Positions 19,535 to 28,412 of a DNA stretch of 36,323 nt are shown here, piece by piece. Source of the DNA: Chromatiales bacterium (GTDB lineage Bacteria > Pseudomonadota > Gammaproteobacteria > Ectothiorhodospirales > Ectothiorhodospiraceae); assembly GCA_028695255.1 (NCBI GenBank), contig JAQVJI010000008.1, positions 1 through 36,323 of the forward strand, written 5' to 3'. The translations under genes and the position numbers were made by a program. The notes below the pieces were generated by a model that did not search any database, was not told where the DNA came from, and saw only the letters and a program-made list of their open reading frames with translations. How positions within the stretch are numbered: position 1 is the stretch's first letter; the number at the start of each line of letters is the position of its first letter.

Positions 19535-20947
19535 ATGCCAGACTCCAGCGGTCATTCCTATCAATCGCGTATCGCGGTTCATCCACGTTCCATCAAAGGC
19601 CGGTTCCGCAACCTCAAGTGGGGCGTACTGGCGTTGGCCTACGGCGTGTATTTCCTGCTGCCCTGGCTGCGCTGGACACGCGACCACGGCCCGTCACAGG
19701 CGCTGCTGTTCGACATCCCTGGTCGCAAGTTCTACATCTTCGACCTGGTCGTGTTCCCGCAGGACATCTTCTGGCTGGCGGGATTCCTGTTCATCGCCGC
19801 GATGCTGCTGTTCTTCGTCACCGGCATCGCCGGGCGCGTGTTCTGCGGCTATTTCTGTTTCCAGACCCTGTGGACCGACGCCTTCATGCTCATCGAGCGT
19901 CTGGTGCAGGGCGAGCGCCCGGCGCGCATGCGTCTGGCGAAGCAATCCTGGAACGGCGAGAAACTGCTCAAGCTCGGCGGTACGCATGCCCTGTGGCTGG
20001 CGTTCGCATTCTGGTCGGGACTGAGCTTCACGCTCTACTGGGGTGACGCGCCGACGTTGACCTGGGCGGTGCTGACGGGCAATGCGCCCGCTCCCGCCTA
20101 CATCACGACCTTCCTGCTCACTGCCACTACCTACGTGATGGCCGGTCTCGCGCGCGAGCAGGTGTGCATCTACATGTGTCCGTACGCGCGCTTCCAGAGC
20201 GTGATGTTCGACAAGGACACGCTCATCGTCTCCTACGACCGCAACCGGGGCGAGGGCAGCGCCGGGCGCGCCAAGCCGGTGCGCGATCTGAAGACCCGCG
20301 AGCAGCGTCAGGCCGCCGGGGTCGGCGACTGCGTCGACTGCGGCCTGTGCGTGCAGGTGTGCCCGGTCGGCATCGACATCCGCAACGGTCTTCAGTATCA
20401 GTGCATCCACTGTGCGCTGTGCATCGATGCCTGCGACCAGATCATGGATGCGCAGGGCTGGCCGCGCGGTCTGGTGCGTTACACCTCCGAGCACGCGCTG
20501 GAAGGTGCGAAGACGCGCGTGTTCAAGCTCAAGACGCTCGGCTATGGCCTGGCCGTGCTGGTCGCGAGCGTACTGCTGGTGGTGAGCGTGATCGACCGCG
20601 AGCCGCTGGAAATCAGTCTGGCCCAGGTGCGTCAGCCGCTGTACGTCGTGCTGTCCGACGGCGCGATCCAGAACAGCTACGAGATCAAGGTCAGCAACAA
20701 GTCGCAGCGGCCGCTGACGCTCGACGTGCGTCTGCACGGGCTCGAAGGCGCCGAGCTCGATCTCGGGCGCATCGAGCACATCGAACTCGGACCCGAAGGC
20801 AGTACGCGCATCATGGCCCGCGTGCGTTATCACGAGGCGGATGTATCGCACGGCATCAAGCAGCACGATCTGAGCATCGATCTGCTGCCGGTCGGTCGCG
20901 ACGACGTCGAAGCCGTGAGTCTGCCGACGCACTTCTTTACGCCCTGA
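19535..20947 (+). CDS. ccoG: cbb3 oxidase assembly protein CcoG (FixG/RdxA family)
   Basis: This 470-residue polytopic iron-sulfur membrane protein, in studied species, reduces Cu(II) to Cu(I) for oxidase assembly. It has five or so membrane helices, with Cys104, Cys108, Cys211 and Cys215 near membrane boundaries (FCGYFC, CIYMC). Two ferredoxin-type [4Fe-4S] motifs follow: Cys266, 269, 272, 276 and Cys290, 293, 296, 300. A C-terminal periplasmic Ig-like domain occupies about 350-470. No clear ribosome binding site lies before the ATG, so coupling or a weak site is likely. The next gene begins seven bases after its stop. Confidence 0.96.
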   Translation: MPDSSGHSYQSRIAVHPRSIKGRFRNLKWGVLALAYGVYFLLPWLRWTRDHGPSQALLFDIPGRKFYIFDLVVFPQDIFWLAGFLFIAAMLLFFVTGIAGRVFCGYFCFQTLWTDAFMLIERLVQGERPARMRLAKQSWNGEKLLKLGGTHALWLAFAFWSGLSFTLYWGDAPTLTWAVLTGNAPAPAYITTFLLTATTYVMAGLAREQVCIYMCPYARFQSVMFDKDTLIVSYDRNRGEGSAGRAKPVRDLKTREQRQAAGVGDCVDCGLCVQVCPVGIDIRNGLQYQCIHCALCIDACDQIMDAQGWPRGLVRYTSEHALEGAKTRVFKLKTLGYGLAVLVASVLLVVSVIDREPLEISLAQVRQPLYVVLSDGAIQNSYEIKVSNKSQRPLTLDVRLHGLEGAELDLGRIEHIELGPEGSTRIMARVRYHEADVSHGIKQHDLSIDLLPVGRDDVEAVSLPTHFFTP

Positions 20948-20954
20948 GATATCG

Positions 20955-21797
20955 ATGGACAACGTTGTCGTCAGTATTGGCATCGTCAGCGTCGGCATCG
21001 GCGTCATCGCGGCTTTTCTCGCCTTCGTGCTGCTGTACCGCTTCACGCGCATGCGCGGCAAACAGGTTGCGCTGGTGGTGATCGCCGGCGTGCTGGTGGT
21101 CTATGTCCCGTATGCAGTGTTCAACTGGGCCGGTGCCGATGTCCTCGCCTTGCATCTGGCGCTGTTCATCATCACGCCCTATGGCCTAGCGATCGTCACC
21201 TCGCAGTGGGAGGCGCGCCGGGACGGCGACCGTGCACGACAGGGCGGGCGCTGGTTCCATTGGGCGCCGGCGACCATCGTCGGTTTCTTTCTGGTGATCG
21301 CGCTGGTGCAGGCGGTGGTGGTGACGGTTGCGCAGCACGGTCTGCCGCAGTCGCTGGTCGGCACGCTGTTGCCGGAGCCGCGCGAGGCGCAGGGGCGGAT
21401 CACCTCGCACTTCCCCGGAACGGTGGCGGGTGAACACAAGCGCGACGACGCCGCAACGCGCGCGCAATTGCGCCAGATCGAGGCGCAACAGGCGCGCGGC
21501 TGGCAGTTGCGGCAGGGCTGGCTGGAACCGCCGGTGGCCGGGCGGCCGGCGATTCTGCAACTGGAGGTGCTCGACCGCGACGGCCGGCCGCTCGTCGGCG
21601 CCAAGTCCGAAGGCTGGTTTCAGCGCCCGTCGGATAGCCGCGAGGATCGTGCCTTCGAGATGCGGGCGGTGGCGCCGGGCCGGTTCCAGGCCGAGGTCAC
21701 GTTGCCGCAGGCCGGAACCTGGAACCTTGTGCTGAGGGTGCGGAGCGGCGACGATATGCACGAACTGCGCGCCAGCACCTCCATCAACGACGGCTGA
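20955..21797 (+). CDS. ccoH: FixH/CcoH-family protein with extra N-terminal membrane region
   Basis: The gene encodes 280 residues. The C-terminal half (about 165-278) is a periplasmic FixH-type beta domain: RPAILQLEVLDRDGRPL, then GRFQAEVTLPQAGTWNLVL. CcoH is needed for assembly or stability of the cbb3 complex and associates with CcoI and CcoN. The usual family member is about 150-180 residues with a single N-terminal helix. Here the helix expected for that role is at about 103-127, and in front of it are three more hydrophobic segments (about 7-29, 38-58, 63-82). The ATG follows ccoG closely with only a weak ribosome binding site. The extension is read straight through in one frame with no internal stop. 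Its function is unknown. Confidence 0.88.
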   Translation: MDNVVVSIGIVSVGIGVIAAFLAFVLLYRFTRMRGKQVALVVIAGVLVVYVPYAVFNWAGADVLALHLALFIITPYGLAIVTSQWEARRDGDRARQGGRWFHWAPATIVGFFLVIALVQAVVVTVAQHGLPQSLVGTLLPEPREAQGRITSHFPGTVAGEHKRDDAATRAQLRQIEAQQARGWQLRQGWLEPPVAGRPAILQLEVLDRDGRPLVGAKSEGWFQRPSDSREDRAFEMRAVAPGRFQAEVTLPQAGTWNLVLRVRSGDDMHELRASTSINDG

Positions 21798-21806
21798 ACC
21801 TCCTGA

Positions 21807-24347
21807 ATGTCCTCCAATCCCGCCACGGCAGAACCACAGGTCGGCACGACCGCCGCTGGCGAGGACACGACTGAAAACGAGTGCTTCCACTGCGGCCTGC
21901 CGTTACCGCGCGGCGCGCATTATCCGGCCGAGGTGCTGGGCGAGACGCGCGAGATGTGCTGCCCCGGCTGTCAGGCGGTGGCGCAGGCGATCGTCGCCGG
22001 CGGCCTCGCAGACTATTACCGCTACCGCACCGAAAAGGCCGGCATCGCCGGCGTGCCGGATGCGCTGCGCGATCTCGAACTCTACGACCGGCCGGAACTC
22101 CAGCAGGGCTTCGTGCAGGTCGAGCCCGGCAATCTGCGCGATGCCTCGCTGATCCTCGAAGGCATCGTCTGTGCCGCCTGCGTCTGGCTCAACGAACGGC
22201 ACGTCAAGACGCTGCCGGGCGTGGTCGAGTTCACGATCAACTTCTCCACCCATCGCGCGCGCCTGCGCTGGGACGACAGCCGCATTCACCTGAGCGACAT
22301 CCTGAAGGCGATCGCGGCCATCGGCTATCGCGCCCATCCCTTCGATCCGGGTCGGCAGGAGGCAGTGTACAAGCGCGAGCGCGCCGTCGCGCTGCGGCGT
22401 CTCGCCGTCGCGGGCCTGGGTGCGATGCAGATCATGATGCTCGCTACCGCTCTGTGGGTGGGCGAGGGCGACGAAACCCACGCCGACATGATCCGTTTCA
22501 TGCGCTGGGTATGTTTCGTGGTCGCCACGCCGGTGGTGTTCTATTCCGGCATCACCTTCCATCTCGCCGCCTGGCGCGACCTGCGCCAGCGCCGGCTCGG
22601 CATGGACGTGCCGGTGTCGCTGGCGATCCTCAGCACCTATTTCGCCAGTGCCTGGGCCACCATCACCGACAGCGGAACGATCTACTTCGAGTCCGCGGCG
22701 ATGTTCGTGTTCCTCCTGCTCGCCGGGCGTTTCCTCGAAATGAATGCGCGCCATCGCGCCGGCCAGGCGACCGAGGCACTGGCCAAACTGCTGCCGCCGT
22801 TCGCGATCCGTCTCACCGACGAGGACGGCGAGGAAACGGTGCCGGTCACCGATCTCGCACCCGGCGATCGCGTGCGTCTGCGTCCCGGCGACATCGTGCC
22901 GGCCGACGGCATGGTGATCGAGGGTCGTTCCAGCACCAACGAGGCGATGCTCACCGGCGAGAGCCTGCCGCGCCTGAAGGCGGCCGGCGACTCGCTCACG
23001 GGCGGCACGGTCAACGTCGAGAGTCCGTTGCTGATGCGGGTGGAAAAGGTCGGTGCCGAAACCACCTTGTCGGCCATCCAGCGCCTGCTCGATCGCGCGC
23101 AGTCCGAAAAGCCCGACATCGCACGCCTGGCCGAGCGCGGCACCGGCTGGTTCATTCTGCTGGTGTTGTTGCTGGCGGCAGGTTCCGGACTGGCGTGGTG
23201 GCACTACGTCGATCCCGCGCGCGCGTTCTGGGTCGCGATATCCGTGATGGTCATCAGTTGTCCCTGCGCGCTGGCGCTGGCCGCGCCGGTCGCGATCACC
23301 GCCGCCACCGGCACGCTGGCGCGTCTCGGCGTGCTCACCACGCGCGGTCACGCACTCGAAACGCTGGCCCAGGCCACGCACATCGTGTTCGACAAGACCG
23401 GCACGCTGACCGAGGGCAGGCTGCACCTCGAATCCACCCGGACGCTCGGTGGCATGAGCGAGGCGGACTGTCTCGCACTCGCCGCGGCACTGGAGGTCGG
23501 TTCCGAACATCCCGTGGCACAGGTGTTCCAGCGCGGGGATGCCGGCGGTCGCAGAGCGGAGGAATTGTTCGCCGTCGCCGGCAACGGCATGGAGGGTCGC
23601 GTCAATGGGCTGAGGTATCGCATCGGTACGCCGGCCTTCGTGGCGGAGCTCGCGGGCGATGGCCTGAACGAGCATGCACAGACCATCGGCCGCGAACGGT
23701 CCGACGTCAGCGTCGTCGTGCTCGGTAACGAGCACGGGCCGCTGGCCCTGTTTCAGCTGGCCGATCGCCTGCGCCCGGACGCGCCGGAAACGATCCTCGC
23801 CCTGCGGCGCCTGGGGCTCGAACCCTGGCTGTTGTCGGGCGACGGCGAGGCGCCGGTGGCGCGCATCGCAGGTCAGCTCGGCATCACGAACTGGCGCGCC
23901 GCGCTCACGCCCGAGGGCAAGCTGGCGCAGGTCGAGGCGCTCCAGCGACAGGGCGCGGTGGTGGCGATGGTCGGCGACGGCGTCAACGACGCGCCGGTGC
24001 TGTCGCGCGCCCACGTCTCGGTCGCCATGGCCGGCGGCAGCCAGCTCGCCCATGCCAGCGCCGACATGCTGTTGCTGTCCGAGCGTCTGCCGCACCTGCT
24101 GGCGGCGGTCGGCAAGGCGCGCGACACGCTGCGCATCATCCGTCAGAACGTCGGCTGGGCGTTGGCCTACAATGGCATCGGCCTGCCGCTCGCGGCGGCC
24201 GGTCTGGTGACGCCCTGGATCGCGGCGCTCGGCATGTCGATGAGTTCGCTCATCGTGGTGGTGAACGCCTTGCGCCTGAACGAGGTCTCAAGAGCGTCCC
24301 GCGGCGCGCCCGCCGAACCCTCGCCCAAGCCGTCGGAGGCCCGCTGA
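21807..24347 (+). CDS. ccoI: Copper-translocating P-type ATPase for cbb3 assembly (CcoI/FixI)
   Basis: This 846-residue P1B-type ATPase exports Cu(I) across the inner membrane for cbb3 maturation. The N-terminus has a Cys-rich metal-binding module (Cys26, Cys29, Cys51, Cys52, Cys55) followed by an HMA-like domain whose metal site is CAAC (Cys122, Cys125). Helices follow, with the actuator motif TGES, the intramembrane CPC (Cys485-Cys487) in ISCPCALALA, the phosphorylation site DKTGT (Asp529), SEHPVA, and the hinge GDGVNDAPVL. The Cys-rich front end is typical of FixI/CcoI rather than CopA. No good ribosome binding site is seen. Its stop overlaps the ccoS start by one base. Confidence 0.97.
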   Translation: MSSNPATAEPQVGTTAAGEDTTENECFHCGLPLPRGAHYPAEVLGETREMCCPGCQAVAQAIVAGGLADYYRYRTEKAGIAGVPDALRDLELYDRPELQQGFVQVEPGNLRDASLILEGIVCAACVWLNERHVKTLPGVVEFTINFSTHRARLRWDDSRIHLSDILKAIAAIGYRAHPFDPGRQEAVYKRERAVALRRLAVAGLGAMQIMMLATALWVGEGDETHADMIRFMRWVCFVVATPVVFYSGITFHLAAWRDLRQRRLGMDVPVSLAILSTYFASAWATITDSGTIYFESAAMFVFLLLAGRFLEMNARHRAGQATEALAKLLPPFAIRLTDEDGEETVPVTDLAPGDRVRLRPGDIVPADGMVIEGRSSTNEAMLTGESLPRLKAAGDSLTGGTVNVESPLLMRVEKVGAETTLSAIQRLLDRAQSEKPDIARLAERGTGWFILLVLLLAAGSGLAWWHYVDPARAFWVAISVMVISCPCALALAAPVAITAATGTLARLGVLTTRGHALETLAQATHIVFDKTGTLTEGRLHLESTRTLGGMSEADCLALAAALEVGSEHPVAQVFQRGDAGGRRAEELFAVAGNGMEGRVNGLRYRIGTPAFVAELAGDGLNEHAQTIGRERSDVSVVVLGNEHGPLALFQLADRLRPDAPETILALRRLGLEPWLLSGDGEAPVARIAGQLGITNWRAALTPEGKLAQVEALQRQGAVVAMVGDGVNDAPVLSRAHVSVAMAGGSQLAHASADMLLLSERLPHLLAAVGKARDTLRIIRQNVGWALAYNGIGLPLAAAGLVTPWIAALGMSMSSLIVVVNALRLNEVSRASRGAPAEPSPKPSEAR

Positions 24348-24900: not shown

Positions 24901-25758
24901 TCAGGCCGCGAGACTCGCCCGCAGCTTGCGCATGGCGTTGCTCTCCAGCTGGCGGATACGCTCCGCCGACACCTGATATTCGTCGGCCAGTTCGTGCAAC
25001 GTCGCCTTCTCGTCGGCCAGCCAGCGCCGCGCCAGGATGTCGTGGCTGCGCGGGTCGAGCGTCTGCAGGGCATGGTGCAGCTTCGACTCGTGATAGGACT
25101 GCCAGTCCTCCTGCTCGGCGATGCGTGCCGGATCGGCATGCGGGTCTTCGAGGTAGGCGGCCGGCGCGAACATCGCATCCTGGTCGTCCTCGGGCTCCGG
25201 GTCGAAACTCACGTCCTGACCGCTCAGGCGCGATTCCATTTCCACCACCTGTTCCGGCGTCACGCCCAGGTCGTTCGCCACCGCCTCCACCTCGCCGCGA
25301 TTGAGCCAGCCGAGACGGCGCTTGGCGCCGCGCAGGTTGAAGAACAGCTTGCGTTGCGCCTTGGTGGTGGCGACCTTGACGATGCGCCAGTTGCGCAGCA
25401 CGAATTCATGGATCTCGGCCCGCACCCAGTGCACGGCGAAGGAGATCAGGCGCACGCCCATGTCCGGATCGAAACGCTTCACCGCCTTCATGAGGCCGAT
25501 GTTGCCTTCCTGGATCAGGTCGCCGAGGTTCAGGCCGTAGCCGCTGTAACCGCGCGCCACCTGCACCACGAAACGCAGGTTGTGCACGACCAGCAGGCGC
25601 GCGGCCTCCAGATCGTTGTCGTCGCGCAGACGGCGGGCGAGGGCGCGTTCCTCCTCGGCCTCCAGGACGGGCAGGGTATAGACGGCGCGGATATAGGCAT
25701 CCAGATCGCCGACCGGGGCGGGCAAGTGGCCCGCGGCCTTGACAAGCGCAGTGGTCAT
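24901..25758 (-). CDS. rpoH: Heat-shock sigma factor RpoH (sigma32)
   Basis: This 285-residue alternative sigma factor directs RNA polymerase to heat-shock promoters. Region 2 contains [19 protein letters not shown] and [19 protein letters not shown]; the RpoH box QRKLFFNLR (135-143), diagnostic for sigma32, follows; region 4 ends with the helix-turn-helix [20 protein letters not shown]. The ATG at 25756-25758 is chosen: GGGGGAA precedes it by eight bases and MTTALVK matches family starts. ftsX, a common neighbour, is not adjacent. A CIRCE operator lies 41 bases upstream, so HrcA repression of rpoH is expected. Confidence 0.97.
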
Positions 25759-25799
25759 CAATTGATTTCCCCCAACAGCGAGTTTTTCTGGGAACGATC

Positions 25800-25826
25800 T
25801 TAGCACTCGTCGGGTTAGAGTGCTAA
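25800..25826. promoter_or_regulatory. CIRCE operator (HrcA binding site) in front of rpoH
   Basis: TTAGCACTC (25800-25808), nine bases, then GAGTGCTAA (25818-25826): an exact copy of the CIRCE consensus TTAGCACTC-N9-GAGTGCTAA. The pairing extends one base on each side. On the minus strand TAAGAT (25797-25802) overlaps the operator edge and is a plausible -10 for rpoH, giving a leader of about 30 bases. HrcA binding would then block the promoter. The site is also 96 bases before the divergent DUF2788 gene and might influence it. Confidence 0.93.
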
Positions 25827-25883
25827 GCAGTGGCGGAGTTCCAGGTCTCGGGAGGCCGAATCCCAGGCCTTACCGCCGGTTTG

Positions 25884-25922: not shown

Positions 25923-26135
25923 ATGATCGACATCGACACCTGGGAACAGATCGAAGGCCACGTGCTGACCGGCGGTCTGACGCTCCTAATGGGCTACATG
26001 GCCTTCATCGTGTGGCGCCTCGGTGTCGACTCCAAGGCCGGCAAGATGGGTTTCTTCGCGCTGTTTCTCGCACTCGGTCTCGGCATGCTCGGCTTCATCA
26101 TCAAGGGCGTGCTGGTGGAGATGCTGGGCGGTTGA
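25923..26135 (+). CDS. DUF2788 family small membrane protein
   Basis: The gene encodes 70 residues with two membrane helices (about 13-33 and 44-66) joined by a short polar loop, WRLGVDSKAGKMG. The size, helix pair, SKAG loop and ending LGLGMLGFIIKGVLVEML match DUF2788 proteins of Pseudomonas and relatives as I remember them; their function is unknown. The ATG at 25923 has TGGAGG about six bases upstream; the longer frame to 25830 would begin at the CIRCE edge and is unlikely. It is convergent with the DUF192 gene, 20 bases apart. Confidence 0.85.
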   Translation: MIDIDTWEQIEGHVLTGGLTLLMGYMAFIVWRLGVDSKAGKMGFFALFLALGLGMLGFIIKGVLVEMLGG

Positions 26136-26703: not shown

Positions 26704-28062
26704 TCAGCCCGCGGCCACCTTCGGCAGCCGGTCGAGGGCGGCGTGGATGGCCGCCTCGGGGTAGGCGTAGTCCTCGAGCTCGCCGCGGAAATAGCGGTCG
26801 TAGGCCGCCATGTCGAAATGGCCGTGGCCCGAGAGATTGAAGAACAGCGTCTTCGGCTCGCCGCTCGCCTTGCAGGCCAGCGCCTCGTCGATGCAGGCGC
26901 GGATGGCGTGGCAGGACTCGGGCGCCGGGATGATGCCTTCGCTGCGCGCGAACTGCACGCCGGCCTCGAAGGTCGGGATCTGCGACACCGCGACCGCCTC
27001 CACCAGACCTTCCTTCACGAGCTGCGACACCAGCGGCGAATCGCCGTGATAGCGCAGGCCGCCGGCGTGGATGCCGGGCGGTACGAAGTCGTGGCCGAGC
27101 GTGTACATGAGCATCAGCGGCGTGAGGCCGACGCAGTCGCCGAAGTCGTAGGCGTAATGGCCGCGCGTGAGCGTCGGACAGGAGGTCGGTTCGGCCGCCA
27201 CCAGGCGCACGTTCCTGCCGGCCGCCTTGTCGGCGAGGAACGGGAAGGCCGTGCCGGCGAAGTTGGAACCGCCGCCGCAGCAGGCGAACACCATGTCCGG
27301 ATACTCGCCGATCTTCTCGAACTGCTTCTTCGCCTCCAGACCGATCACGGTCTGATGCAGGCAGACGTGGTTCAGCACCGAGCCCAGCGCGTAGTTCGTG
27401 TCCTTGCGCGAGGCGGCCTCCTCGACGGCCTCGGAGATGGCGATGCCGAGCGAGCCGGGCGAGTTCGGGTCCTGCGCCAGGATCTGGCGGCCGGACTCGG
27501 TGAGGTTGGTCGGGCTGGCCAGCACCTCCGCGCCCCAGGTCTCCATCATCGAGCGGCGGAACGGCTTCTGCTCGTAGCTGATCTTGACCATGTAGACGCG
27601 CACGTCGATGCCGAACATCTGCCCGGCCAGCGCCAGCGACGAACCCCACTGCCCGGCGCCGGTCTCGGTCGACAGCCGACGGATGCCGGCCTCGCGGTTG
27701 TAGTAGGCCTGCGCCACGGCGCTGTTCGGCTTGTGCGAGCCGGCCGGCGACACGCCCTCGTACTTGTAATAGATCTTCGCCGGCGTGCCGAGTGCGGCTT
27801 CGAGGCGATGTGCGCGCACCAGCGGCGACGGGCGCCACATGGTCAGCGCCTCGCGCACCGGGTCGGGGATCGGAATCCAGCGTTCGGCCGAGACCTCCTG
27901 CATCACGATTGCTTCCGGGAAGATCGCGAGCAGCGCGTCCGGACTTACCGGCTTGCCGTCCGGACCGAGCGGCGGTGCCGGCGGGTTCGGCAGGTCGGCG
28001 ACGATGTTGTACCAGTGGGTCGGGATCTCCGACTCGTCGAGCAGGATCTTGGTCTGGGCCAT
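26704..28062 (-). CDS. TrpB2-type tryptophan synthase beta chain
   Basis: This 452-residue PLP enzyme is about 50 residues longer than classical TrpB and has the TrpB2 layout: an N-terminal extension ([19 protein letters not shown]), [12 protein letters not shown], the PLP lysine K111 in [18 protein letters not shown], and the PLP phosphate loop GGGSNFAG. TrpB2 makes tryptophan from indole and serine, often without a TrpA partner. No trpA, trpF or other trp gene is in the window. GAGGGG lies nine bases before the ATG at 28060-28062. An HMA-domain gene precedes it by 68 bases. It may scavenge indole or back up a TrpAB complex elsewhere; both are inference. Confidence 0.93.
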
Positions 28063-28130
28063 GCTGGTGTTCCCCTCTTGCCTGGGTGGTATGAATGCGT
28101 TGAATGAAGCGACGGACTTCTGTGGTCCGC

Positions 28131-28412
28131 TCAGTCCTGCCCGCCCATGCGGCCGACGGCGCAACTCACGAAGGACTTGGCCTTGGCCTTGAAGGCGTCG
28201 GTGCCGCTCACCGAGCCGCGCTCGGGATAGCCGAGGCCGGCCAGCCGGCGTGCGATCTCGGCGCGGATGTCGTCGGCGGCGTTGACGGTCACGCGGCCGT
28301 TCTCCACGTCCACTTCAACGCCCTGCACGCGGGCATCCTCGGCCAGGCCCTTCTTGATGCTGTTGGCGCAGCCGCCGCACTTGATGTTGTCGACTTCGAT
28401 GCTGAATTCCAT
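28131..28412 (-). CDS. Heavy-metal-associated (HMA) domain protein, CopZ-like
   Basis: The gene encodes 93 residues. Residues 1-65 form a ferredoxin-like HMA fold with metal site KCGGC (Cys12, Cys15) and the strand pattern [14 protein letters not shown]. The C-terminal 28 residues are an unusual tail with SCAVGRMGG and a third Cys. Most HMA chaperones handle Cu(I), but the metal here is not shown; the MxCxxC methionine is replaced by Lys. GGAGG precedes the ATG by seven bases. It is divergent from ilvD and on the same strand as the TrpB2 gene. A supply role for nearby CcoI is conceivable but unsupported. Confidence 0.9.

Follow-up and report, generated by a model that had tools for sequence, protein, structure and literature searches.

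A CIRCE operator superimposed on a putative RpoE-type promoter upstream of rpoH in a member of the Ectothiorhodospiraceae

In descriptions modelled on E. coli and Bacillus, the heat-shock response is governed either by a sigma factor (sigma32) or by a repressor (HrcA/CIRCE), the two being treated as alternatives. The window considered here, a stretch of 36,323 nucleotides from a Chromatiales bacterium, places a perfect copy of the HrcA operator directly upstream of the gene for sigma32, which raises the question of whether the repressor governs the sigma factor and, if so, which promoter lies beneath the operator. Sequence comparisons indicate that in many relatives HrcA may directly govern the sigma32 gene, and would do so on a promoter read by a third stress regulator, RpoE. 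The features on which the argument depends are as follows.

24901 to 25758, minus strand: rpoH, sigma32, 285 aa (TIGR02392, NF005143, Pfam sigma70 r2 and r4)
25800 to 25826, palindrome assigned to neither strand: CIRCE, exact HrcA operator, TTAGCACTC-N9-GAGTGCTAA, 0 mismatches
25826-25818, 25817-25809 and 25808-25800, as read on the rpoH strand: left arm, spacer and right arm of the CIRCE
25836 to 25842, minus strand: putative RpoE (sigmaE) -35 element GGAACTC, read in the sequence and supported by the conserved offset of GAAC
25815 to 25819, minus strand: putative RpoE (sigmaE) -10 element TCTAA, 16 nt from the -35 and supported by covariation with GAAC
25797 to 25805, minus strand: candidate sigma70 extended -10, TG-C-TAAGAT, formed by the right CIRCE arm and GAT
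25826-25821, minus strand: -35-like hexamer TTAGCA, identical with the start of the left arm, 18 nt from TAAGAT
25923 to 26135, plus strand: divergent gene for a DUF2788 protein of 70 aa (PF10981, 65.8 bits)

The assignment of the downstream gene to rpoH is based on the curated equivalog model TIGR02392 (rpoH_proteo, 403.5 bits against a cut-off of 323.1) and on NF005143 (421.2 bits), with Pfam sigma70 regions 2 and 4 also found, and its best start is the ATG at 25758, preceded by a Shine-Dalgarno-like stretch, GGGGGA. A preliminary description of this DNA had claimed a perfect CIRCE 41 bases ahead of rpoH, and both parts of that claim are borne out, the operator at 25800-25826 being free of mismatches and 41 bp removed from the ATG at 25758. 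It is the sole match in the window, even when three mismatches are allowed, and the chance expectation in the window, taken from 100 dinucleotide-preserving shuffles, is zero.

Conservation extends the observation well beyond one genome. Directly upstream of rpoH, a CIRCE with zero to two mismatches is present in 37 of 37 sampled genomes of the same family, which rules out an oddity of a single metagenome-assembled genome. Across the class, an evenly drawn sample of 369 genomes was searched with a strict pattern, a CIRCE followed 393-453 bases later by the ATTK codons of the RpoH box, and the pattern matches 177 genomes and 134 of 272 genera, frequencies that are lower bounds because the patterns are strict; the reversed control pattern matches none. 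HrcA is detected by PF01628 in 268 of the 369 genomes, and the rpoH CIRCE occurs in 165 of these as against 12 of the 101 genomes without detected hrcA (p=8e-19, a value that treats relatives as independent, as do all genome tallies given here except the one-per-family test below, the genomes being drafts). Nine of the 12 are less than 90% complete, and three genomes that are at least 96% complete (G130, G170 and G349) carry the rpoH CIRCE with no HrcA found by PF01628, which may reflect a gap in the assembly, divergence of the repressor or a site that is a relic. A chance match is ruled out by the zero expectation in shuffles together with this conservation; the broader notion of a chance match or functionless relic, for which a draft genome from an organism of unknown physiology leaves some room, has a probability close to nil, given that the site is present in every sampled member of the family and is associated with hrcA. 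Conservation in the family and the class and the tie to hrcA presence make it very likely that HrcA controls rpoH.

The preliminary description had made its proposal of HrcA control depend on the presence of hrcA, and the source assembly, a draft of 2.9 Mb that is 82% complete, does encode it (PF01628, 224.8 bits against a cut-off of 22.2), within an hrcA-grpE-dnaK-dnaJ cluster. It had also proposed a search for further CIRCE copies at groESL and dnaK, and here the outcome is divided: a second CIRCE with one mismatch lies before groES of groESL (C55:6870-6896), while a search of the hrcA-grpE-dnaK-dnaJ cluster returned none, the best match having eight mismatches and none within seven being found at grpE and dnaK. 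Within three mismatches, rpoH and groESL are the only sites in the assembly. Stretches of the form CTTGAA...CCCAAT upstream of grpE and dnaK resemble sigma32 promoters. With no CIRCE at the dnaK cluster, HrcA would therefore reach dnaK in this genome only through rpoH, and thus through sigma32, its CIRCE targets found here being rpoH and groESL. RpoE is also encoded (TIGR02939, 305.7 bits against a cut-off of 236.15), its gene being adjoined by that for RseA (RseA_N, 63.2 bits) and preceded by an RpoE-like GAACTT-N16-TCAAT.

The canonical elements of RpoE promoters are GGAACTT at -35 and TCAAA at -10 (PMC4890791), and a promoter was assigned to RpoE on the basis of a GGAACTT-like -35 separated by 15-17 nt from TCnnA. 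On the rpoH strand, GGAACTC-N16-TCTAA conforms to this description, and its -10 element straddles the boundary between left CIRCE arm and spacer, taking TC from the end of the arm and TAA from the start of the spacer, such that promoter and operator share bases. In 30 of 30 close loci GAAC stands upstream of the CIRCE, at an offset of -15 (21 loci), -16 (eight) or -14 (one). When GTDB contigs were scanned for GGAAC-N11-CIRCE without regard to gene content, at least 117 stretches matched, and among the matches listed 106 have an RpoH box downstream, while five of the other 11 end less than 400 bp from the site. An unbiased sample of 90 rpoH CIRCE sites from 52 families, picked regardless of the -35 region, was set against 30 groES sites as a control: GAAC occurs at the exact offset of -15 in 59 of the 90 rpoH sites and in none of the 30 groES sites, other offsets being rare. 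The third spacer base, which supplies the closing A of TCnnA, is an adenine at 55 of the 59 sites with GAAC as opposed to seven of the 31 without (p=8e-12), and the association holds when each family contributes a single site (27 of 30 versus six of 22, p=5e-6); the next-best spacer position reaches p=3e-4. That -35 and -10 covary at the spacing of a promoter has no ready explanation other than use of these elements by RpoE. The interpretation of the locus as HrcA control of rpoH was in this respect incomplete, since the promoter under the operator, overlooked in the preliminary description, appears to be largely of the RpoE type.

About a third of the rpoH CIRCE sites (31 of 90) lack GAAC at offset -15, and several of these carry GAAC...TCnnA in another register, often with GAAC 15-16 bases further upstream and TCTAA right before the CIRCE. 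Six loci (L153, L154, L222, L235, L260 and L261) have an RpoE -35 30-31 bases upstream of the CIRCE, and in the same six a TCTAA-like -10 ends just ahead of the operator and not inside it.

A second candidate promoter faces the same gene. The span given in the preliminary description, 25797-25826, comprises the CIRCE and the GAT that follows its right arm and completes the hexamer TAAGAT, presumably the 'candidate -10' that the operator was said to overlap. The hexamer is indeed there, and since TGCTAAnAT is conserved it gains support, but taken alone it is weak: TGC-TAAGAT in the window scores four of six to a TGnTATAAT-like hexamer, and a generic sigma70 scan of the region returned no consensus promoter. 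The rpoH sites continue with nAT past the right arm, giving TGCTAAnAT, the final T of which is found in 87 of 90 rpoH sites as against three of 30 groES sites, and also in 30 of the 31 rpoH sites without the RpoE element. TGCTAAnAT resembles a sigma70 extended -10 and is regarded as a probable one at rpoH. Its greater constancy compared with the RpoE element could be taken to mean that HrcA represses rpoH via a sigma70-type promoter and no other, with the RpoE-like bases incidental; this we regard as unlikely, as GAAC at one offset is confined to rpoH sites in the comparison with groES, with the -10 adenine covarying, and the genome encodes both RpoE and RseA.

The position of these promoter elements also bears on two further ways of reading the operator. 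In RNA the palindrome pairs into a stem of 10 bp capped by a 9-nt loop, and might serve as a hairpin in the rpoH leader affecting mRNA stability or translation, instead of or besides acting as a DNA operator. The predicted start sites, however, fall inside or after the CIRCE, such that the main transcripts would lack at least part of the palindrome; the whole leader folds no better than shuffled sequences (z -1.1), and the DNA consensus is conserved base by base and tracks hrcA presence. Such a role for the RNA is thought highly improbable. Equally, a palindrome has no direction, and with the divergent DUF2788 gene starting just 96 bp away the CIRCE could in principle serve that gene, at 25923, and not rpoH; rpoH at short distance is nonetheless the constant partner across 52 families, and the embedded promoter elements face rpoH, which leaves this assignment with only the slightest probability.

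The reading favoured here, with good confidence, is that of a genuine HrcA operator over the rpoH promoter region, from which HrcA would block the RpoE-type and probably the sigma70-type promoter and be released, through a link to GroEL, at rpoH and groESL alike. For the HrcA of other bacteria it is established that activity is lost once GroEL is occupied. In the unstressed cell, GroEL would keep HrcA active and HrcA would sit on the CIRCE, where it is predicted to exclude RNA polymerase with RpoE from GGAACTC-N16-TCTAA, the -10 of which lies inside the operator, and probably also to block the sigma70-type extended -10 TGC-TAAGAT. Unfolded proteins would draw off GroEL and leave HrcA inactive, derepressing groESL and rpoH together, and sigma32 could then switch on grpE and dnaK from their sigma32-like promoters, which carry no CIRCE. 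RpoE would feed an envelope-stress input into the same rpoH start region and, as it would read one of the promoters there, envelope stress and cytoplasmic folding stress would meet at a single operator. The same bases would then act as sigmaE -10 and as operator arm, and envelope stress and GroEL load would be combined at the sigma32 gene. Repression of rpoH by HrcA, as proposed in the preliminary description, draws support from the presence of hrcA, the groESL CIRCE and the conservation tied to hrcA. What the analysis shows directly is the sequence, its conservation, the full set of regulators and the covariation of -35 and -10; binding, repression, start sites and GroEL feedback at rpoH are inferred. 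As the composite recurs in many relatives, three stress circuits appear genuinely to be joined here, and the arrangement does not look like an oddity of one genome.

The operator before groESL, in this genome and across the class, is identical in kind to that at rpoH, and the repressor is presumably shared. At groES the CIRCE lies past a TTGAC...TATnA promoter, with a spacer that mostly begins with AC; the operator is therefore downstream of the -10, whereas the operator at rpoH contains -10 elements. A change in the right arm, from GAGTGCTAA to GACTGCTAA, recurs at rpoH in several genera and in other families (e.g. L013, L014, L016, L019 and L024), and at some groES sites the left arm is altered in mirror-image fashion, to TTAGCAGTC. 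This recurrent half-site change may mark a tuned, weaker half-site.

The link between CIRCE and rpoH is not in itself new, having been predicted in Geobacter sulfurreducens, for which Table 8 of Rodionov et al. 2004 (PMC545781) lists an exact CIRCE at -51 of rpoH; the remark in the preliminary description that HrcA control of rpoH had been proposed by comparative genomics elsewhere is thereby confirmed. The two cases share the exact CIRCE consensus, the short distance to rpoH and the prediction that HrcA controls the gene for sigma32, but G. sulfurreducens belongs to another phylum-level lineage and has a CIRCE at hrcA-grpE-dnaK-dnaJ, which is absent here, and the passages of PMC545781 consulted describe no overlap of CIRCE with an RpoE promoter at the G. 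sulfurreducens rpoH. In E. coli, control of rpoH by RpoE is classical and P3 is an RpoE promoter (PMC8103513); P3 reads GAACTT-N16-TCTGA as compared with GGAACTC-N16-TCTAA here, with equal spacing. The E. coli rpoH region contains neither a CIRCE nor a remnant of one, the best match having eight mismatches, and the E. coli control genome yielded no hrcA.

The composite at rpoH points to a possible evolutionary origin of E. coli P3. A fused RpoE promoter and HrcA operator may be how rpoH is usually controlled in beta- and gammaproteobacteria that possess hrcA, P3 being what remains after the loss of hrcA, a generalisation for which we see even chances. A partial and spelling-bound search of the literature found no account of an RpoE promoter and an HrcA operator superimposed at rpoH. 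Permina and Gelfand are said to have probably surveyed beta- and gammaproteobacterial CIRCE sites earlier, in 2003, and priority for the superimposed arrangement is uncertain.

Other genes around rpoH were noted in passing. The divergent 70-aa DUF2788 product is a membrane protein. On the other side of rpoH, positions 19535-24347 of the window hold ccoG (442.6 bits), with a gene for a copper-type P1B ATPase farther along that strand; together these presumably form a cluster for cbb3-oxidase maturation. Positions 26704-28164 encode a TrpB-like pyridoxal-phosphate enzyme (TIGR01415, 632 bits), a TrpB2-type relative of the tryptophan synthase beta chain.
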